Origin: Nitrospinae bacterium RIFCSPLOWO2_12_FULL_45_22
GTDB lineage: Bacteria; 2-12-FULL-45-22
NCBI GenBank assembly: GCA_001803565.1
Contig: MHDQ01000012.1
Coordinates: 1-9,620 of the forward strand
Direction: 5' to 3'
DNA length: 9,620 nucleotides
Shown: positions 207 through 9,620 of the stretch, one piece after another
How the letters are laid out: every line of letters starts with the position of its first letter
How positions within the stretch are numbered: the stretch's first letter is position 1
The notes under the pieces: generated by a model
What the model was told of the DNA's origin: nothing
Seen by the model: only the letters and a program-made list of their open reading frames with translations
The model's database searches: none
Program-made: the position numbers and the translations under genes

Positions 207-1022
207 TTATGGCTTTTTCGCATATATAAGGGTTTCGGGTGTTTCTTTTTCCGTAAGACTCAGGACATATATGGTCAGGGCCTTGGCCTCTTCGTCTGAA
301 AGACCCAGGTTAGGCATCTCTGAGTCAGGATTAAATACCTGCGGGTCTTTGAGATGCATAAATTGCCAATCTGCCTGGGTCAACTTTGGGCTATCATATT
401 TACCGAAATCGAACTCATGCCTCTTTTTATCCCCTTCATTAGTAAGGTCCGGGGCATCTTTTTCTCCTTCACCCCGGAGGCTATGGCAACCCAGGCATTC
501 ATACTGGGCAAATAACTCCTTACCCTTTAAAAGTAGTGGGGCATCTTTTATCAATTCCTGGTCTTGATGGCACTTGCTACAGGATGCCTGCACATAATCA
601 CTTTTCAATATTGGGTACTGCCAGTTCTCCCGCTCGCCATGGGCATCTGCTACCGTAGTAGCCAATCCCTGCCCACCATGACAAATAGGACACCCAAAGT
701 CTTCCGGTGGGTGCTGGTAGGGGTTTGGATGGGCTTTATAGGGATTATCCTCAAAGCCCGCTTCGGTATTGTCAAATCCCAGGTGACAGGTAGTACAGCG
801 ATCCACAATATCGGTACCAGGGATCATAATTTGATTTATTTTATACCTAAGCGGCTCCATGGGGCCTTTTCCTCCCCGTGCCATTGCCTGGCTATATTCC
901 ATCTGGTAATACCTCTTTTGATATTTTTTCCACTCTCTATTGGTATCTCTCCCTACCGTGAGGCCAAAGAGCACCAGAGAGCCTAAACCCAAAAGAGCAA
1001 AATCCCAGTTTTTTATCCTCAT
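207..1022 (-). CDS. Membrane-anchored tetraheme cytochrome c, Rieske/cytochrome b complex subunit
   Basis: The 271-residue protein has one N-terminal membrane anchor (about residues 8-24) and a periplasmic body. Four CxxCH heme c sites are visible: C76-H80 (CTTCH), C111-H115 (CPICH), C148-H152 (CSKCH) and C176-H180 (CLGCH). The last domain reads like a class I cytochrome c, with DSEMPNLGLSDEEA giving a likely axial Met236. The ATG at 1022 has AGAGG about 7 nt upstream. The gene follows cytochrome b with a 179-bp gap full of palindromes, so it is most likely the electron-accepting cytochrome of the complex, replacing cytochrome c1 or f. Multiheme cytochromes in this operon position are known from several anaerobic lineages. 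The exact redox partner cannot be read from the sequence. Confidence 0.9.
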   Translation of the reverse strand: MRIKNWDFALLGLGSLVLFGLTVGRDTNREWKKYQKRYYQMEYSQAMARGGKGPMEPLRYKINQIMIPGTDIVDRCTTCHLGFDNTEAGFEDNPYKAHPNPYQHPPEDFGCPICHGGQGLATTVADAHGERENWQYPILKSDYVQASCSKCHQDQELIKDAPLLLKGKELFAQYECLGCHSLRGEGEKDAPDLTNEGDKKRHEFDFGKYDSPKLTQADWQFMHLKDPQVFNPDSEMPNLGLSDEEAKALTIYVLSLTEKETPETLIYAKKP

Positions 1023-1049
1023 ATTTTATCCTCTTATATTCCCTCGACT

Positions 1050-1114
1050 TTGTCACATTAGCCAAACTGTAAAAAAATTGGCTAATTCTTACGGGTATCC
1101 AATAAATGTGACAA
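1050..1114. repeat. Two nested perfect inverted repeats between cytochrome genes
   Basis: TTGTCACATT at 1050-1059 is the exact reverse complement of AATGTGACAA at 1105-1114. ATTAGCCAA at 1057-1065 is the exact reverse complement of TTGGCTAAT at 1078-1086. The arms overlap by three bases, so the outer and inner stems compete at their junction but can largely stack into one structure. The inner loop is 12 nt and contains seven A's on the plus strand (1071-1077). The region lies 28 bp upstream of the tetraheme cytochrome start. It could be a mobile palindromic element, an RNA processing or stabilising structure, or a dyad operator. Confidence 0.8.
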
Positions 1115-1126
1115 GGTTAAATTAAC

Positions 1127-1142
1127 GCAGGCTAAAGCCTGC
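1127..1142. repeat. 16-bp perfect palindrome GCAGGCTAAAGCCTGC (REP-like)
   Basis: GCAGGCT at 1127-1133 and AGCCTGC at 1136-1142 flank a two-base centre. The adjoining AACTACC, together with the palindrome, resembles a short dispersed repeat I recall from many environmental bacterial genomes. An 11-bp palindrome, GTTAAATTAAC (1116-1126), lies directly beside it. A transcript through the region would form small hairpins, but no U tract follows, so an intrinsic terminator is not indicated. Confidence 0.7.
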
Positions 1143-1201
1143 AACTACCCCAAAACCGCATTATTAAAATGAAAATTCCTATGCAATCAAGTTACTTTTG
1201 C

Positions 1202-2464
1202 CTAATGCTTAGGCCATTCCTGCCAGGGCCAATACCAACCCCAGTTAGGGCCCCTAAGATAAGTGCCAATAATAGTAAGGATAACAGCCGTCAGTACAAA
1301 GATAGAAAAAAGTATTATTGCCAGTTTCCTCTCCCGGGAGAACCATACCCCTACACCGCTGGGGTTCCTGTCTATAAAAGGGATCAGGATAATCCCTATG
1401 ACCGCCAGGGCGGGAGCGAGTACCCCACCAAGAAAGGCCGAGTAGCTTACTAATTCCTGTAGACCCAGGAAATACCAGGGGGCTTTAGCCGGGTTGGGGG
1501 TATGTTCCGGGTCAGCCAATTCCTCCAGGGGGGCATTAAAAAAGAAGGAAAAGACATGAAGGATAATCATGATGAGCATGGCATATTTAATTTCTTTATA
1601 AACCAGGTTAGGAAAGGTAAACTCTGTATCTTCCGGCTCTTTTTCGACCATCGGGGTCGGCCCTTTAACCAGCCCCATCAGCCCATAAGTCTTTAGGGGA
1701 GCCGGAGCGGCTTCTTCCTCTGCTCCTACCTCCTCTATGGGCGGCCCAGAAATCCCCCCATCCTTTCGTATCCGCCAGAAATGTATGGCCAAAAAAGTAC
1801 CCATCAATACCGGCAGGATAGTCACATGGAGGACATAAAAGCGCATCAGGGCATTCTGCCCCACGATATTACCACCCAGCAGGGCATAGCGGATTTTAGG
1901 CCCCAGGATAGGGGCATAACTCGCTATATTCGTGCCTACAGTTATGGCCCAAAAGGCCAACTGGTCCCAGGGGAGAAGGTACCCAGTAAAGCTAAGGAAT
2001 AGGGTTAGTAATAACAGCACTACCCCTATCCCCCAATTAAACTCCCGGGGTCTTTTATAACCGCCAGTATAAAACACCCGACACATATGAAAGAAAACGA
2101 CTAAGACCATTAGATGGGCTGACCAGCGGTGTAGATTCCTCAATAAGAGACCATACGAAATCACAAACTCTAAATCTTTCATATTGTTGTATGCTTCCTT
2201 AGTAGAAGGGACATAGTAAATCATTAGCAAAATGCCGGTTACCGTCAACACGAGAAAGAGAAAAAAGGAGAGCCCGCCTAATCCTAAAGTATAAGTAAAC
2301 TTCAGGGCATGCCTTCTAACCTTCGCAGGGTGTAAGTGGAGGAAAAAATTACTCGAGATAGCTAATGACTGGTTACGTTCTGTGGGGGCATAGCCATGCC
2401 GGAAAATAGATCGCCAGACCTGAGTCTCCCTTAGTCCTTTTATAAGGTCATTGAATTTTGCCAT
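1202..2464 (-). CDS. Cytochrome b (fused b6 and subunit IV type) of Rieske/cytochrome b complex
   Basis: This 420-residue integral membrane protein oxidises quinol and carries hemes bL and bH. The four heme-ligand histidines are H112 and H126 (14 apart) in [16 protein letters not shown], and H213 and H228 (15 apart) before FWRIRKDGG. This spacing is b6-like. The C-terminal half matches subunit IV ([10 protein letters not shown] near residues 286-295, then [10 protein letters not shown] at 361-370). An acidic, Pro-rich linker (about 240-280) joins the halves, so the b6 and IV parts are one polypeptide. The Qo motif that is usually PEWY reads KAPWY (327-331), lacking the Glu. No Cys is present where b6 binds heme ci (Leu69 aligns there), so a covalent ci heme is unlikely. 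The ATG at 2464 follows AGGAGGAGATA and lies 18 bp after the Rieske stop, so translation is probably linked. Confidence 0.95.
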
Positions 2465-2482
2465 ATCTAACCCTATCTCCTC

Positions 2483-2947
2483 CTAAACTTTTAGCTTATA
2501 GCCGGTCTCGACAAACTTGGCAACATCAATCACCAGTTCCCCTTTTCGCGTAAGGGCAATAGAGAGCCAATCCAAGGGCTTTGGGGCTGGCCCGGAGAGC
2601 ACAAAGCCATTGGCATCGAAGACACTACCATGACAGGGACAGAAAAAGCCCTTCTTTTCCTGCCGCACAGTACATCCCAAGTGGGTACATACGGCCGAGA
2701 GGGCACGGAAGCCTCCATTGTCCCTAAAGACAAAGACTCTTTTTTCTGCCAGAAAAGTTACGGAATCGCTGGGATAATCTTCTGGCCGACCTGCCCTAAA
2801 AGTAGTGGCTGGTTCATATAAGACATTAGGGAAGATAAATTTTACTGTCTCTTCGATCATCCCGGCAAATACAGGAAACAGAGTTCCCCAGCCGATCCAG
2901 AGCATAAAATCCCGCCGTTTTATTTTGCCTCCTTTCTCTTCTGGCAT
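2483..2947 (-). CDS. Rieske [2Fe-2S] iron-sulfur protein
   Basis: The 154-residue subunit transfers electrons from quinol to the cytochrome c partner. A twin-arginine sequence (KRRDFM, R11-R12) precedes a hydrophobic anchor (about 15-33), as expected for Tat export of a folded cluster protein. The cluster motifs are CTHLGC (C87, H89, C92) and CPCHGS (C103, C105, H106). C87, H89, C103 and H106 are the expected ligands; C92 and C105 form the usual disulfide. GPAPKPL follows, as in the family. Ser108 is present, but the position two residues later, Tyr in high-potential forms, is Phe110. That suggests a lower potential suited to menaquinol. The ATG at 2947 has AGGAGGG 8-9 nt upstream. The gene is the first one after the 287-bp palindromic element and directly precedes cytochrome b. 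Confidence 0.96.
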   Translation of the reverse strand: MPEEKGGKIKRRDFMLWIGWGTLFPVFAGMIEETVKFIFPNVLYEPATTFRAGRPEDYPSDSVTFLAEKRVFVFRDNGGFRALSAVCTHLGCTVRQEKKGFFCPCHGSVFDANGFVLSGPAPKPLDWLSIALTRKGELVIDVAKFVETGYKLKV

Positions 2948-2970
2948 TAGCTATTCCCTCCTGTTATTTC

Positions 2971-3257
2971 AGGTCATTAGGTTATTGGGTCATTAGGTCA
3001 TTGAATAACCGTAAATGTTTAGCCAACTAAAGTCTTCTAAAAATAAGCCGCAAAAATGCGCAAAAAGAACAAAAACAATATGAACCACAAAGCCACAAAG
3101 AACACCAAGAAAAAGAAGGGTGGCATCTCGAGGATGGTCAATTGAATTCTTTGTGTCCTTGGTGTCTTTGTAGTTATAAACTTAACCAGAATTTTCTTGT
3201 GCCTTTTTGTGGCTAAACTATTACGAATAACCTAATCACCTAATGACCTAATAACCC
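2971..3257. repeat. 287-bp near-concentric palindromic (foldback/MITE-like) element
   Basis: This element fills nearly all of the 300-bp gap between the flavoprotein and Rieske genes. The outer arms are four 8-nt tandem units each: AGGTCATT-type units at 2971-3002, and inverted AATRACCT-type units at 3226-3257. GGTTATT at the arm core pairs along 23 nt with two mismatches (2980-3002 against 3234-3256). The middle arms are 3010-3025 and 3210-3225 (14 of 16 complementary, including a perfect GTTTAGCCA/TGGCTAAAC). The inner arms are 3083-3110 and 3148-3175 (23 of 28), built from ACAAAG/CACAAAG words. The three arm pairs share nearly one centre (about 3114-3129). No open frame of note lies inside. 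The structure suggests a non-autonomous mobile element or a large RNA hairpin in the operon transcript. Confidence 0.8.
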
Positions 3258-5164
3258 ATTGATTGGATTACTTCCTCCTCAAATTCGAATAACTCCAGAG
3301 TAATAGCCCCGGTGGGGCAACGCTGCTGACATAAACCGCACCGGATACACAGAGTCTCATCTTTAATAATAGCCGTCCCCATATCTGACAGATTATCTCT
3401 ATCAGTTATTCCTTTCAAATTAATACCATAGCGGGTTTCAATCAGTTCCTCTAAATCTTTATCTCCCGATATGTCCCCCAATTTAACTAACTTTAGACAG
3501 TTATAAGGACAGACATCTACACAGCCGCCGCAAAGGATGCATTTTTCGCTATCAAAGATAGTATTGATAGCACATTTTAGACACCTCTTACCCTCCAGGG
3601 TCGCCGTCTCATTATCGTAGCCTAGCTCTACTTCATCAATGCCCATACGGCGGTTAAGGGGGGTTACTGATACCTTCTGTCTTGGTATAGTATCATAGTC
3701 CTCATACTTACTCCGGGCAGGGACTATCTTCATGGACCAGGTGGTCTTTCTTCGCTCTAAGCCTGTAATATAGCGATCAATGGCCCTGGCCGCCTTTTGC
3801 CCATCAGCTACCGCCTCAATCACTAACCTGGGCCCAAAAGCCACATCACCGCCAGCAAATATCCCTGGGCTTGAAGTCTCCAAAGTTACAGGATTAATCT
3901 CTACCAAACCCCTTTTTGATGCCTTTATCCCGTCCTCTTCTTTTATAAACGAGAGATCCGAGGCCTGGCCAATAGCCAGGATTATAGAGTCGGCTTCTAT
4001 AACCTTTTCCGTGTGGGAGATAAAGGTTGGATTAAATCTCCCCTCGCTGTCGAACACCGAGGCCACATCCAGGGTCTCTAACCCTGCTACCCGGCCATTT
4101 CTACCCAGTATCCGTTTAGGCCCTCTTGAGGTATGGATAATAATCCCTTCTTCTTCCGCCTCTTCTACTTCCCATTCATGGGCGGGCATCTCCGCGCGGG
4201 ATTCCAGACATGCCATATGTACCTCCTCCGCCCCTAACCGCAAGGCTGTCCTGGCAGCATCGGCTGCTATACTGAGGACTTCTTCTTCCGGCAACGTCTC
4301 AATCTTCCTCCGCTCTATAACTCTTCGGGCAATATCCATCAATGTCTGCAGCTCCCCCTCGCCCCGTCGGATAGCCGACCTTGCTACATCAATAGCTACA
4401 TTCCCACCACCAATGACTACTACTCGGGCCCCTAGATCAATCTTATAGCCAAGATTTACATTAAGGAGAAAGTCTACTCCATTAAGGACACCATCCAACT
4501 CTGTACCTTCTATCCTCAAGTCCCGGCTTTTATGGGCGCCAATAGACAAAAATATCGCCTTGAAACCTTGCTCCCGTAAATCTTTAACAAAAAAATCCTG
4601 GCCGAGTCTTACCCCGGTAACCAGATTCACCCCTAAATCCAATATTGCATCAATATCCTGCTGGATGATCTTCCGGGGCAACCGGTATTCAGGAATCCCT
4701 AAATATAGCATCCCGCCTGGCTTAGGATGGGCTTCAAAGATAGTGACCTGGTAACCCAGTTTAGCCAGCTCATGGGCACAGGAGAGGCCTGCGGGCCCTG
4801 CTCCCACAATAGCTACCTTTTCTCCCTTTAATTCTAAGGGCCGTACTGCCAACTGATATCCTGTCTGATGCCGGTCAGTAGCGGCGCGCTTTAAGGCGCG
4901 GATAGAGATAGGCTCATCCAAAAAGCCCCTTCGGCAGGCATCTTCACAAGGGTGGGCACATATCCGACCACAGACATAGACAAAGGGATTGGGCTTTCTC
5001 GCTAAGGTAAAGGCCTCTTCAAACTTCCTCTCTCCAATAGCGGTTACATAGCCGCCGGAATGGGTATGGACCGGACAGGCTTCCTGGCAAGGGATATTCT
5101 TCTTAAAATATTCCAAGTCCGGAATCTTTACCTGATATGTTCTTTTCTTCCTATCTTTCTCCAT
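3248..5164 (-). CDS. FAD-dependent NAD(P) oxidoreductase, GltD/NfnL-like, with two C-terminal [4Fe-4S] clusters
   Basis: This 638-residue cytoplasmic flavoprotein has no membrane segment. The N-terminal domain has the GltD-type Fe-S cysteine set (C26, C30, C65, C69, C73, C77). The FAD motif GAGPAG is at 121-126, the NAD(P) motif GGGNVA at 252-257, and the second FAD motif GIFAGGD at 434-440. The C-terminus adds CLKC (528-531) and a two-cluster ferredoxin domain: C542, C545, C548, C552 and C606, C609, C612, C616. The expected role is electron exchange between NAD(P)H and Fe-S or ferredoxin-like carriers. Its place at the head of the Rieske/b operon suggests it docks to that complex, as I recall for NAD(P)-oxidoreductase subunits linked to Rieske/b complexes in anammox planctomycetes. 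A roughly 43-residue helical insertion follows the NAD(P) motif. GGAG sits 5 nt before the ATG. The stop codon lies inside the adjacent repeat element. The physiological substrate is uncertain. Confidence 0.9.
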   Translation of the reverse strand: MEKDRKKRTYQVKIPDLEYFKKNIPCQEACPVHTHSGGYVTAIGERKFEEAFTLARKPNPFVYVCGRICAHPCEDACRRGFLDEPISIRALKRAATDRHQTGYQLAVRPLELKGEKVAIVGAGPAGLSCAHELAKLGYQVTIFEAHPKPGGMLYLGIPEYRLPRKIIQQDIDAILDLGVNLVTGVRLGQDFFVKDLREQGFKAIFLSIGAHKSRDLRIEGTELDGVLNGVDFLLNVNLGYKIDLGARVVVIGGGNVAIDVARSAIRRGEGELQTLMDIARRVIERRKIETLPEEEVLSIAADAARTALRLGAEEVHMACLESRAEMPAHEWEVEEAEEEGIIIHTSRGPKRILGRNGRVAGLETLDVASVFDSEGRFNPTFISHTEKVIEADSIILAIGQASDLSFIKEEDGIKASKRGLVEINPVTLETSSPGIFAGGDVAFGPRLVIEAVADGQKAARAIDRYITGLERRKTTWSMKIVPARSKYEDYDTIPRQKVSVTPLNRRMGIDEVELGYDNETATLEGKRCLKCAINTIFDSEKCILCGGCVDVCPYNCLKLVKLGDISGDKDLEELIETRYGINLKGITDRDNLSDMGTAIIKDETLCIRCGLCQQRCPTGAITLELFEFEEEVIQSMGY

Positions 5165-5468: not shown

Positions 5469-6389
5469 CTAGGGTGCAATCTTGGGCAATGTTTGCCCAT
5501 ATGTCAGAATATCATTTTGATCAGTAATGGACAAACCATTATTTACTGCCGAGGGCATCGTTGGACTGCTACCTGGGTGTCCAAAGCGGATCTTTTGCAA
5601 GGTCTCCCAGGGATTGTCATTGGCAACGTCACCAACACCCTCGGTACCATCAAATTTAATAGCCGTACCATCGGCACCGTGACACATGATACACTGTCCC
5701 CCACCGGTCCCGGTATTCTCATATAAAGTCTTGCCCTTTGTTACATCACCGGTAGCGGACTTCTTTTGCGTGCCATTAAAGATAACATACTTATCCATCT
5801 CAACTAAGCTTTCTTTAATAAACCGGGTGAGGTCCCAAATATCCTGCTCAGAGAGAGAAAGGTTGTGTTTGGTGATTATAGCAAAGAGATGGGCGGCATT
5901 CATATTTCTCGCCTCATAGACCCCTTTGATACCGGTATAGTGGCTACCACTAACATAGGCCCCATCCTTACCTTTATAATCCCAGCCGTGGCATTCTTTA
6001 CAGCGCCAGGTATCTTTACCAGACTGTTTCCCGGTCGAGGGATAGAAAGGATGATTACTTGTAGGTTCAGCTTGACCATTTATCTTCCACCACTTATCAT
6101 ACAAAACTCCTCCCCGTACCGCATCTGCCGTCGCTAACTTTGATTCATTAATAGTAACAACCGAGGTTGGCAGGACAGGCTCAAACTTCAGGGTGGTCTC
6201 ATTAAATTTGAAATCGAGATTATAGGTAATTCCTGGCGTGCCCGAATAAATCAGGCCAAAAACCCGAATGGTGTCTGCATCAGCCGGGGAGACGTCTGAC
6301 TTGGACCAATCAAGAACACCGGCAAAGGCCCCACCTCCTGAAATGACTAACATCCCTAAAACCATAACAAAAAAGGCTTTCATCTTCAT
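5469..6389 (-). CDS. Exported diheme cytochrome c
   Basis: The 306-residue protein has a clear signal peptide (MKMKAFFVMVLGMLVISG, with likely cleavage after AFA at residue 23). Two heme c sites are visible: C130-H134 (CKECH, in a WRCKECHGWDYKGKDG context) and C233-H237 (CIMCH). Met279 (PTMPS) is a likely axial ligand of the second heme. The first domain has RGGVLYDKWWKINGQ ahead of the heme, a pattern I recall from periplasmic cytochromes of anaerobic or metal- and sulfur-cycling bacteria. The specific function is unknown; a soluble electron shuttle or small oxidoreductase is reasonable. The start at 6389 is chosen because AGGAGG (6402-6397) is 7 nt upstream. An earlier in-frame ATG at 6407 would place the ribosome site inside the gene. 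A sigma-54 promoter lies about 209 nt upstream. Confidence 0.9.
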   Translation of the reverse strand: MKMKAFFVMVLGMLVISGGGAFAGVLDWSKSDVSPADADTIRVFGLIYSGTPGITYNLDFKFNETTLKFEPVLPTSVVTINESKLATADAVRGGVLYDKWWKINGQAEPTSNHPFYPSTGKQSGKDTWRCKECHGWDYKGKDGAYVSGSHYTGIKGVYEARNMNAAHLFAIITKHNLSLSEQDIWDLTRFIKESLVEMDKYVIFNGTQKKSATGDVTKGKTLYENTGTGGGQCIMCHGADGTAIKFDGTEGVGDVANDNPWETLQKIRFGHPGSSPTMPSAVNNGLSITDQNDILTYGQTLPKIAP

Positions 6390-6426
6390 CTTACTTCCTC
6401 CTTTCATGATTTCTTGCTCATTTTGG

Positions 6427-6843: not shown

Positions 6844-7179
6844 CTAGCTCTTCTTCGAAGGGTTCAAATCTATCATCTTGATATCTCTAGCATTATCCCT
6901 TAAATAAGAGGTGGTGTGGAGGACTTTTAATCCTTTTAACTGACTCATGATCTTCTTTATCTTCTCAGCCTCTTGTCTTATGTTAACCAGCACCTCTTTT
7001 GCCTCAGCCGGAAGCCCTTGTTCATTACGCAATAAGACCTCTATCGCCCCTATGATGCCTGCCAGGGGGTTATTGATACCATGACTCAGGGTGACAACTA
7101 CCTGCTGGATAGCCGCCAGTTGTTCAACCTCTACCTGCCTATCCTTATCGTCCTGTAATCCCTCTGGGTAATCGCTCAT
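6844..7179 (-). CDS. Stand-alone HisKA (DHp) domain protein lacking the ATPase domain
   Basis: This 111-residue soluble protein consists almost wholly of a histidine-kinase dimerisation and phosphoacceptor helical hairpin. Helix 1 (about 18-51) carries the H-box LSHGINNPLAGI with His33; helix 2 spans about 57-85. No N, G1 or G2 ATP-binding boxes follow, and the gene stops after MIDLNPSKKS. The residue after His33, normally Glu or Asp, is Gly34, while Asn37 at the +4 position is kept. From family knowledge, the acid is needed for autophosphorylation and the +4 residue for phosphatase activity. The protein may therefore act as a phosphotransfer shuttle, a response-regulator phosphatase, or a dimerising inhibitor of the kinase. 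The ATG at 7179 has AGGAGGGAGG about 12-14 nt upstream. Its own sigma-54 promoter lies about 50 nt upstream, so it may provide feedback on the neighbouring NtrC system. Confidence 0.82.
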   Translation of the reverse strand: MSDYPEGLQDDKDRQVEVEQLAAIQQVVVTLSHGINNPLAGIIGAIEVLLRNEQGLPAEAKEVLVNIRQEAEKIKKIMSQLKGLKVLHTTSYLRDNARDIKMIDLNPSKKS

Positions 7180-7295: not shown

Positions 7296-8675
7296 TTATC
7301 TTAAATTAAACTTGTCCATCCTATACCGTAATGCATCCCGGCTGATCCGGAGCATCTGGGCAGCCTTGCTCTGATTACCGCCGGTCATTTCTAAGGACTT
7401 TCGGATGATTTCCTTCTCTATAAGTTCCAGAGATATCCCTCCCCGAGGCAGAGAGAGATTAATCAGGTCAAGGGGTTCGTTGTCCTTACTCCTTTTAAGC
7501 GAGCCCGAAATCTCGCCGGGGAAATCTTCTACCGTTATATAACCCTCTCTATTGAGCAGGATAGCCCGCTCGATCACATTTTTAAGCTCCCTGACATTTC
7601 CTGGCCAATCATAAGCCAGCAAATATTCCATAGCTTCCCTGATTATTCCCCCTTTCCTGGCCCTATATTCCTTGTTGTAATAATCTATAAAATAATTTAC
7701 CAGCAAAGGAATATCCTCATGCCTCTCCCTGAGCGGAGGTAGATGAATGTGCATCACCTTAAGGCGATAGTAAAGGTCTTCCCGGAAACTCCCCTCTCTT
7801 ACCATGTTTAAGAGGTCTTTATTGGTTGCCGCGATAATCCGAACATCTATCTCTATATCTCTGGTAGAACCTATCCTCCTTATCTTCTTGTTTTCACACA
7901 CCTTAAGTATCTTGGCCTGCATGGGGAGGGGCATGTCTCCTATCTCATCTAGAAACACTGTCCCTGCCTTACCCGTCTCCAGAAGTCCTTTTTTTAGTTC
8001 CTTGGCATCCGTAAAGGCGCCTTTTTCGTGGCCAAAGAGCTCACTCTCTAATAATGCTTCTGGCAAGGCAGCACAATTTATCTCCATAAAGGGACCATTA
8101 CCGCGATAACTTTGATAATGTATGGCCCTGGCTACCATATCTTTTCCGGTCCCGCTTTCTCCGGTAAGCAATATGGTAACATCTGCCTGGGCTACCTTAC
8201 TGATCATATCGAAGACCTGGGTCATCTGTTTACTCTTACCAATAATATTAGTATAGCCATAAGTCTTCTCATGAATGGTTCTGAGGTAGGTAAGTTCTTT
8301 TTTTATAACATTGGCGTCCAGGGCTTTTTGGATCTCGAGCTTTAGTTTCTCGAACTCCAGGGGTTTGGTAACATAATCATAGGCCCCCAATTTTAGGGCC
8401 TTGACCGCAGTATCAACCTCCCCATAGGCAGTCATAACGATAGTTATAATATCTGGGTCTATTTCTTTGATTCCTTTCAGGACCTCGATCCCGGTAACGT
8501 CCGGGAGTCTAACATCCACCAGGACCAAGTCTGGAATCATTTCTTTAACCTTTTCTAAGCCCTCGTTAGCCGAGGCTGCTTCTCCCACCTGGTACCCATG
8601 ACCACTAAAATATTTATTGAGTGACCACCGGATCAGTTTGTCATCATCTATGATAAGGATTTTTCCTTTAGGCAT
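7296..8675 (-). CDS. Sigma-54-dependent NtrC-family response regulator
   Basis: The 459-residue transcription activator has three domains. The receiver (about 4-118) has the acidic triad D10-D12, phosphoacceptor Asp54 (VLVDVRLPD), Thr82 and Lys104. The AAA+ domain (about 142-375) has Walker A GESGTGKD (172-179), the sigma-54 contact loop GAFTDA (219-224; usually GAFTGA), Walker B FLDEIGD (241-247), arginine-finger candidates R298 and R304, and WPGNVREL (357-364). The Fis-type helix-turn-helix is at about 431-459 (NQSKAAQMLRISRDALRYR). The start at 8675 is chosen because GTCTGGAGTTAGG gives a ribosome site. A longer in-frame start at 8735 would overlap the kinase gene and add 20 residues ahead of the receiver. 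The gene is 22 bp after the kinase stop, and the two are surely a pair. Two sigma-54 promoters downstream are its likely targets. Confidence 0.95.
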   Translation of the reverse strand: MPKGKILIIDDDKLIRWSLNKYFSGHGYQVGEAASANEGLEKVKEMIPDLVLVDVRLPDVTGIEVLKGIKEIDPDIITIVMTAYGEVDTAVKALKLGAYDYVTKPLEFEKLKLEIQKALDANVIKKELTYLRTIHEKTYGYTNIIGKSKQMTQVFDMISKVAQADVTILLTGESGTGKDMVARAIHYQSYRGNGPFMEINCAALPEALLESELFGHEKGAFTDAKELKKGLLETGKAGTVFLDEIGDMPLPMQAKILKVCENKKIRRIGSTRDIEIDVRIIAATNKDLLNMVREGSFREDLYYRLKVMHIHLPPLRERHEDIPLLVNYFIDYYNKEYRARKGGIIREAMEYLLAYDWPGNVRELKNVIERAILLNREGYITVEDFPGEISGSLKRSKDNEPLDLINLSLPRGGISLELIEKEIIRKSLEMTGGNQSKAAQMLRISRDALRYRMDKFNLR

Positions 8676-8697
8676 CCTAACTCCAGACCCCGCTATA

Positions 8698-9620
8698 CTA
8701 AAGTTCTCCCGGGGCAACCGGGGTAAACAATACAAATTCTGCGGCAGGAATTACAATCGTAAAGGTAGTTCCCTTCCCCGCAGTGCTTTCTACTGCTATC
8801 TTACCAGAGTGCTCTTCTACAATCTTTTTTGCATTAGCGAGTCCTAAGCCTGTACCTTTAGCCTTAGTAGTATAAAAGGGGATGAATATCTTCGGTAGAG
8901 CCTCTGGAGAAATGCCTTCCCCATCATCCCTAATAGTCACCCTTACTCCATCCTCTGAAGCAGGTCTCCCATCCCATAGGGTTCCCCTATTTAGATTTGA
9001 GGTAGCTATCTGGATATTCCCTCCCTGGTGGGCAGCTTGAATAGCATTTAATAAGATATTCAGGAATACATGCCGCATCTGTTCTGTATCTGCCAGAGCC
9101 AGGAAAAGGTTGGGATATAGTTTGAGTTCAAGCTCGATGTCCTTGTCCTTTAAGGGTTGGTTTAGTAACACAATAGTACTGTCCAGGATATCATTCAGAT
9201 TTACCTGCATAAGACATGGCTTTGGTGTCTTGGCATAACTGAGCAGGTTATCAATGAAATTGGTCAAGCTCTTGATTTGCGATTGCATCTCTCCAAAAAT
9301 ATCCTTTTTTGGATCCTCCTCGGCTACTTCCTCTGCCAAAACCTTTAAAGCGCTGCTGATACCTGCCAAAGGAGTCTTGATTTCGTGGGCCAATCGGCTA
9401 GCAAGCTCTCCCAGAGAAGCAAGCCGGTCTGCCCGCAGCATATGTTCCTCATGGTAGCGCATAATTTGTTCCTGGGCCTCTTTGAGCTTCTGGATCATAG
9501 AATTAAAGCACTTTCCTAAACGACCCAATTCATCATTATTGTTTATCTCGATCCTGGCAGATAGGTCCCCTGCCTCTACCCGGCTCATTTTATCCCCTAA
9601 TTCCTCCAACGGCTTATCTA
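8698..9620 (-). CDS. Sensor histidine kinase, NtrB-like, C-terminal part (runs off right edge)
   Basis: The frame is open to the right edge. The in-frame TTG at 9609 is not the start, because D-K-P precedes it within a HAMP domain (PLEELGDKMSRVEAGDL). After HAMP and a coiled-coil signalling helix comes the H-box SRLAHEIKTPLAGI, with the phosphoacceptor His at 9387-9385. The HATPase_c domain has the N-box (LNILLNAIQA, Asn at 9048-9046), G1 (DDGEGI), an F-box (FIPFYTTK) and G2 (GTGLGLANA). All catalytic boxes are intact, so this is an active kinase that phosphorylates the regulator encoded 22 bp downstream. The missing N-terminus should hold the membrane segments and sensor domain, so the signal cannot be inferred from this window. 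The C-terminal tail after FTIVIPAA is short. Confidence 0.95.
   Translation of the reverse strand, partial: DKPLEELGDKMSRVEAGDLSARIEINNNDELGRLGKCFNSMIQKLKEAQEQIMRYHEEHMLRADRLASLGELASRLAHEIKTPLAGISSALKVLAEEVAEEDPKKDIFGEMQSQIKSLTNFIDNLLSYAKTPKPCLMQVNLNDILDSTIVLLNQPLKDKDIELELKLYPNLFLALADTEQMRHVFLNILLNAIQAAHQGGNIQIATSNLNRGTLWDGRPASEDGVRVTIRDDGEGISPEALPKIFIPFYTTKAKGTGLGLANAKKIVEEHSGKIAVESTAGKGTTFTIVIPAAEFVLFTPVAPGEL

Follow-up and report, generated by a model that had tools for sequence, protein, structure and literature searches.

The window analysed here is a whole contig of 9620 bases from Nitrospinae bacterium RIFCSPLOWO2_12_FULL_45_22, whose draft assembly comprises 3.67 Mb in 321 contigs and is 85% complete. 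Its minus strand carries, at positions 207–5164, four genes in the order flavoprotein, Rieske protein, fused cytochrome b and tetrahaem cytochrome c (Table 1). This order and content had been put forward in a first-pass annotation of the DNA and are borne out by the open reading frames (ORFs) and by Pfam and NCBIfam, which agree on the assignments of all four genes. A chance or mis-assembled array of four unrelated genes is ruled out by synteny that is conserved across other phyla. The source lineage itself is thinly sampled; among 59 further genomes chosen as relatives, only one belongs to the same order.

The flavoprotein consists of an N-terminal GltD-type Fe-S domain, flavin adenine dinucleotide (FAD)- and NAD(H)-binding domains and two C-terminal [4Fe-4S] ferredoxin-type motifs, and no signal or membrane helix was seen in it. 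Its 17 conserved cysteines match two N-terminal GltD-type clusters and two ferredoxin-type clusters, and the C-terminal RCLxC pair probably completes the former. The combination of Fer4_20 and Pyr_redox_2 with FAD and nucleotide sites places the protein in the NfnL/GltD family. Among solved structures, those closest to it in sequence are GltD-like subunits from NfnABC and StnABC (9bov, 9n5u, 8oh5), and the same subunits are the best matches of its AlphaFold2 model (mean predicted local distance difference test score, pLDDT, 86.7), with a Z of 37.5 and a root mean square deviation of 5.5 over 494 residues for 9bov_A. These proteins and NfnL have FAD/NAD(P) domains and N-terminal clusters in common with the window flavoprotein. 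However, they belong to soluble bifurcating transhydrogenases without a Rieske/b partner.

The Rieske protein has an N-terminal RR, a membrane anchor and the motifs CTHLGC and CPCHGSVFD; near the cluster, a Ser is present and a Phe stands where some Rieske proteins have Tyr. In cytochrome b, the b6 and subunit IV domains are fused, haem b is liganded by His 112, 126, 213 and 228, and the motif of the quinol-oxidising (Qo) site is APWY, invariant across the fused rows of the alignment. The Rieske cluster motifs and the four haem-ligand histidines assign the complex to the bc1/b6f superfamily. The Rieske protein, these histidines and the Qo site are common to cytochromes b6f and bc1, which however have no NAD(H) subunit. 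The membrane-anchored, tetrahaem cytochrome c replaces cytochrome c1/f.

The 300 nt between the flavoprotein and Rieske genes hold an interspersed repeat element of ~230–300 nt that widens the gap to 319 nt, whereas the median gap of relatives is 44 nt. Of this element, at least five near-full copies (75–97%) and dozens of fragments occur elsewhere in the genome; it is not part of the complex.

Table 1. Genes, repeat element and key codons of the locus (positions in the window)
Feature	Position	Strand	Description
Flavoprotein gene	3248..5164	-	638 aa; ORF and Pfam Fer4_20, Pyr_redox_2, two Fer4
Rieske gene	2483..2947	-	154 aa; ORF and Pfam Rieske
Cytochrome b gene	1202..2464	-	420 aa; Pfam Cytochrome_B and Cytochrom_B_C
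Cytochrome c gene	207..1022	-	271 aa; four CxxCH; Pfam Cytochrom_C
Intergenic repeat element, miniature inverted-repeat transposable element (MITE)-like	2948..3247	.	Inverted ends, arms 2974-3002 and 3234-3262
Insertion after GGGNVAxDxAR helix	4262..4366 (codons ~267-301)	-	Present in the wide clade, about 14-44 aa
E321 codon, CLES motif	4202..4204	-	Acidic residue ending β2 of nucleotide-binding domain
R608 codon in CIRCG, last cluster motif	3341..3343	-	Arg in 89/89 of clade vs 1/13 non-complex paralogs
R615 codon	3320..3322	-	Arg in 88/89 of clade; Glu in 10/14 non-complex paralogs
H43 codon, cytochrome b	2336..2338	-	Equivalent of Kuste4571 His43 / Kustd1481 His62
G61 codon, cytochrome b	2282..2284	-	Aligned with spinach b6 Cys35, which binds haem c_n covalently; no cysteine here

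Linkage and co-inheritance of the flavoprotein

We searched 84,980 named genomes with a flavoprotein profile, took the best 80 loci and called the neighbouring genes as stop-to-stop ORFs with profiles. Rieske and/or cytochrome b genes directly follow the flavoprotein in all 79 readable loci of these best 80; in the 80th, L151, the contig ends within the flavoprotein gene. By record titles, the linked loci span at least 15 phyla. They include Acidobacteriota, Zixibacteria, Neomarinimicrobiota, Planctomycetota, Chloroflexota, Binatota, Verrucomicrobiota and Bacteroidota, with further loci in Ignavibacteriales, KSB1, Myxococcota, Actinomycetota, Armatimonadetes, Omnitrophota and Abyssobacteria. 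The cultured Geothrix campi and Anaeromyxobacter PSR-1 are among the genomes with a flavoprotein-Rieske/b unit. Chloroflexi and one Actinomycetota locus show the order flavoprotein-b-IV-Rieske-c and the remainder the order flavoprotein-Rieske-b-c. These sequences form a wide clade that is distinct from the similar complexes, which, as far as could be searched, have been described only from anammox bacteria to date. In a Phycisphaerae genome (L154, 6780-8039), an ORF for an 11-haem cytochrome lies immediately upstream of the flavoprotein gene.

Since this set had come through the flavoprotein, 60 genomes were searched in reverse, by cytochrome b only. The flavoprotein adjoins all seven clade cytochromes b found outside the window genome (L041, L042, L043, L045-L048), and none was seen within the stretch read at the related split-b/octahaem complexes (L044, L049-L058). 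When pairwise distances were compared across 85 loci, the correlation was r=0.85 for flavoprotein and cytochrome b, 0.65 for flavoprotein and Rieske and 0.63 for cytochrome b and Rieske. In these sequences, the flavoprotein tracks cytochrome b no less tightly than a genuine subunit. No relatives were found in a viral scan.

The first-pass annotation had grouped the flavoprotein with the Rieske, b and c genes. The linkage found from both directions upholds this grouping, as do the covariation of distances and the conserved predicted contact residues described below; close relatives in which the flavoprotein is absent or unlinked were looked for, and none turned up in the clade. Alternatively, the flavoprotein could be a soluble enzyme, encoded in the operon and regulated together with the complex without being a subunit of it, in keeping with its lack of a membrane anchor or signal and with the repeat that displaces its gene in the window genome. 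We regard this as very improbable. Co-inheritance at all readable loci, a distance correlation with cytochrome b that is tighter than the one between cytochrome b and Rieske, and predicted contact arginines that are conserved here and absent in free paralogs all argue against it, as does the co-migration of the Kuste4569-4574 subunits in Kuenenia (PMC12954380).

A group of Rieske/b6/subunit IV/octahaem c complexes without flavoprotein, found in many phyla, belongs to the same cytochrome b subfamily and shares H43 and the APWY motif. Unlike the window complex, these have a split b and mostly an octahaem c, and they usually retain the cysteine for haem c_n (29/33, compared with 1/88 in the clade). 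Both kinds occur in the window genome, where a second complex with split b (L054, G000:C4 408-2999) keeps the Cys that the window complex lacks. No flavoprotein gene was seen near L054 in its contig of 13.6 kb, where 0.4 kb of sequence remains past subunit IV.

Nucleotide site and comparison with anammox complexes

In enzymes with two dinucleotide folds, an acidic residue at the end of β2 goes with a preference for NAD(H), and arginines there go with one for NADP(H). The NADPH-type YRR motif is not found at this position in the window flavoprotein, which has CLES there instead. The residue aligned with E321 is Glu in 88 of 89 clade rows and Arg in 14/19 outgroup and 7/12 anammox rows. The first-pass annotation had spoken of an NAD(P) protein; the nucleotide site is indeed present, and because of the acidic E321 in place of YRR we narrow its specificity to probably NAD(H). 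The insertion that follows the GGGNVAxDxAR helix is missing from non-complex paralogs and from Kuste4570/Kustd1483-type proteins; AlphaFold2 gives it helices at low confidence.

The closest precedent comes from Kuenenia stuttgartiensis, where a putative NAD(P) oxidoreductase accompanies each of two Rieske/b complexes, Kustd1480-1485 and Kuste4569-4574; quinol bifurcation to NAD(P)+ has been proposed for them (PMC12954380). The authors count the Rieske potentials of +335 and +303 mV as supporting this proposal; in the +335 mV protein, Kustd1480, the Ser is present and the Tyr missing (PMC12954380). In their AlphaFold3 models, a new haem b sits where the two cytochrome b monomers meet, with Kuste4571 His43 or Kustd1481 His62 as ligand, and arginines of cytochrome b and the flavoprotein, including Kustd1483 Arg550, lie at the propionates of this interfacial haem (PMC12954380).

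These positions were located through the anammox-order genome G109, which holds both Kuenenia gene orders, has a residue numbering that fits the predicted contact positions and was taken as Kuenenia or a very close relative. The histidine at H43 is kept in 89/89 clade members, and Kustd1483 Arg550 aligns with R615 of the window flavoprotein. The Arg of CIRCG (R608) was considered as the counterpart of Kuste4570 Arg511 and ruled out by numbering, as Arg511 sits in CVLCGRC. R615 and R608 would be membrane-facing residues in the Kuenenia model and are characteristic of complex-linked flavoproteins. As the AlphaFold3 junction residues of Kuenenia are conserved (H43, R615), the predicted docking of the flavoprotein on cytochrome b is supported, which falls short of proof.

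The overall make-up of the window complex is reminiscent of the anammox complexes. All have a Rieske protein, a b6/subunit IV cytochrome b with an HLHP motif, a multihaem c and a GltD-type flavoprotein with extra [4Fe-4S] clusters; H43 is conserved throughout, and the junction arginine is common to the window flavoprotein and Kustd1483. The nearest PDB matches of the window Rieske protein are 9rk4 and 9rk3, which we take, from their titles and PMC12954380, to be the two Kuenenia Rieske proteins, and it shares with Kustd1480 a retained Ser and the lack of Tyr. However, the complexes differ in several features. Whereas the window complex has a fused b with Gly61, a tetrahaem c and the flavoprotein gene first, the anammox complexes have a split b with the haem c_n Cys (12/12 rows), a hexa- or octahaem c (in Kuste4569-4574 also an HAO-like subunit) and the Rieske gene first. 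Likewise, the Kuenenia flavoproteins carry YRR and no insertion, in contrast to CLES and the insertion in the window.

In the cytochrome b tree, the wide clade forms one side of a branch with a support of 100, and the anammox rows nest among the flavoprotein-free complexes. Joining the wide clade with the flavoprotein-bearing anammox rows was rejected (p-value of the approximately unbiased test, p-AU, 4e-68). The anammox parallel drawn in the first-pass annotation is real, but the window and Kuenenia complexes are not orthologous, as their cytochromes b fall into separate clades. The flavoprotein trees point the same way less firmly. Flavoproteins of the Kuste4570 and Kustd1483 types fall outside the wide clade in the best trees, the former beside a free paralog, and a single clade of anammox and wide-clade flavoproteins is not rejected (p-AU 0.114). 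The two groups were probably recruited separately; at this p-AU, independent recruitment is not upheld as proven.

Both types can occur together in one organism, as in a Scalindua genome with a wide-type (L085) and an anammox-type (L161) complex. One anammox-order flavoprotein (L204, 8480-10327) groups with Kuste4570 and yet carries the CLES motif and the insertion of the wide clade, possibly through domain exchange. At L209 (1584-6036), two tandem flavoprotein genes precede one Rieske/b complex.

A proposed route from menaquinol to NAD+

Taking these observations together, the reading that we favour, at slightly better than even confidence, is a membrane Rieske/b complex with a cytoplasmic NADH-type flavoprotein that would make NADH by menaquinol bifurcation. 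The direction of electron flow, the stoichiometry, the docking and the formation of the complex are what we infer. The flavoprotein would dock through its C-terminal ferredoxin domain on the side of the cytochrome b dimer that faces the negative compartment, next to a haem b for which H43 of each monomer would be the ligand. Menaquinol would be oxidised at the Qo site, from which the first electron would pass to the Rieske protein and on to the tetrahaem cytochrome c. The second electron would travel from haem b_p to haem b_n and the interfacial haem b, and then over the four [4Fe-4S] clusters to FAD and NAD+, so that NAD+ reduction would take the place of the usual exit at the negative-side quinone (Qn) site and haem c_n. 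NADH would thus be made from quinol and paid for by a high-potential periplasmic acceptor.

The loss of the haem c_n cysteine fits such a diverted negative-side electron exit. MqnC or MenD scored over the cut-off in about 15/24 genomes searched (in the window genome, the MqnC match lies below it), and the presence of these genes suggests menaquinone in most. Haem-copper oxidase, a possible high-potential sink, scored over the cut-off in 37/44 clade genomes and 12/21 flavoprotein-free genomes of the same sample, a comparison in which phylogeny is not controlled; a high-potential sink would thus usually be at hand in the clade.

Electrons could also run the other way. The complex would then be an NADH-fed quinone/cytochrome c reductase and an NADH entry point, with electrons passing from NADH through FAD and the clusters to cytochrome b, and with menaquinone reduced near the negative side or the second electron supplied at Qn. 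The acidic nucleotide site is typical of NADH enzymes, the clusters can pass electrons in either direction, and the clade includes probable heterotrophs, which would be expected to have surplus NADH. We nevertheless consider this route unlikely. Since the window genome encodes complex I, as do 63 of the 66 genomes searched, a plain NADH:quinone reductase would be redundant and would waste energy, an argument that has also been made for Kuenenia (PMC12954380). In addition, the Qn exit has lost its haem c_n.

A third possibility is flavin-based bifurcation or confurcation, in which FAD would be the bifurcating site, as in NfnL, and would link NADH, ferredoxin and cytochrome b or the quinone pool. 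The nearest folds are the bifurcating NfnABC/StnABC and NfnL, and the four clusters could serve a ferredoxin site. Moreover, Arg239 of StnC, the FAD-tuning arginine of Nfn-type enzymes (PMC7483475), aligns with the invariant R161 of the window flavoprotein. However, this arginine may be widespread in the superfamily, no ferredoxin gene linked to the complex is found among the window ORFs, and the C-terminal ferredoxin domain is more simply explained, with its conserved R608/R615, as the link to cytochrome b. We therefore hold flavin-based bifurcation to be improbable.

Several points weigh against menaquinol bifurcation to NAD+ as well. H43 is conserved to the same degree in the sister complexes that lack the flavoprotein (31/33). 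The interfacial haem, should it exist, would therefore not be specific to the flavoprotein route, and the idea of a flavoprotein-specific haem ligand was rejected. A general association of Cys loss with the flavoprotein was likewise rejected, as anammox complexes have both flavoprotein and haem c_n Cys and a test of independent pairs was not significant; in our trees, the coincidence of the two in the wide clade is one lineage-level event. The AlphaFold2 model of cytochrome b is moderate (pLDDT 70), and 7/44 clade genomes are without a haem-copper oxidase over the cut-off. In the window itself, the repeat between the flavoprotein and Rieske genes may weaken their co-transcription. Finally, the wide clade is known from sequence alone.

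Upstream of the locus, a gene for a dihaem c-type cytochrome (5469-6407) lies ~300 nt from the flavoprotein gene on the same strand. An ORF of 111 aa with a HisKA domain only (6844-7179) resembles a kinase fragment and adjoins a pair of NtrC-type regulator and sensor kinase (7296-9618).

In searchable papers, the discussion of NAD(P)H-making Rieske/b complexes is confined to anammox bacteria, in which such complexes are difficult to test. We found no description of NAD(P)-linked Rieske/b complexes outside anammox in the open-access literature, although earlier surveys (ten Brink 2013, Dibrova 2013) may contain one. As complexes of this kind turn up in at least 15 phyla, and among cultured organisms in Geothrix campi and Anaeromyxobacter PSR-1, purification, knock-out and redox titration become possible outside anammox. 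Because the haem c_n and nucleotide sites differ in the separate clade, two natural versions are available for comparison. Tentatively, and at somewhat less than even confidence, we propose that bifurcating quinol:NAD+/cytochrome c complexes form an ancient family that spans many phyla and evolved separately from the complexes of anammox bacteria. In it, a direct branch of NAD+ reduction would have replaced the Qn/haem c_n branch of the Q-cycle, and NADH would be obtained without reverse complex I. If this is true, it would show that the Q-cycle can have its second branch redirected to a soluble carrier.

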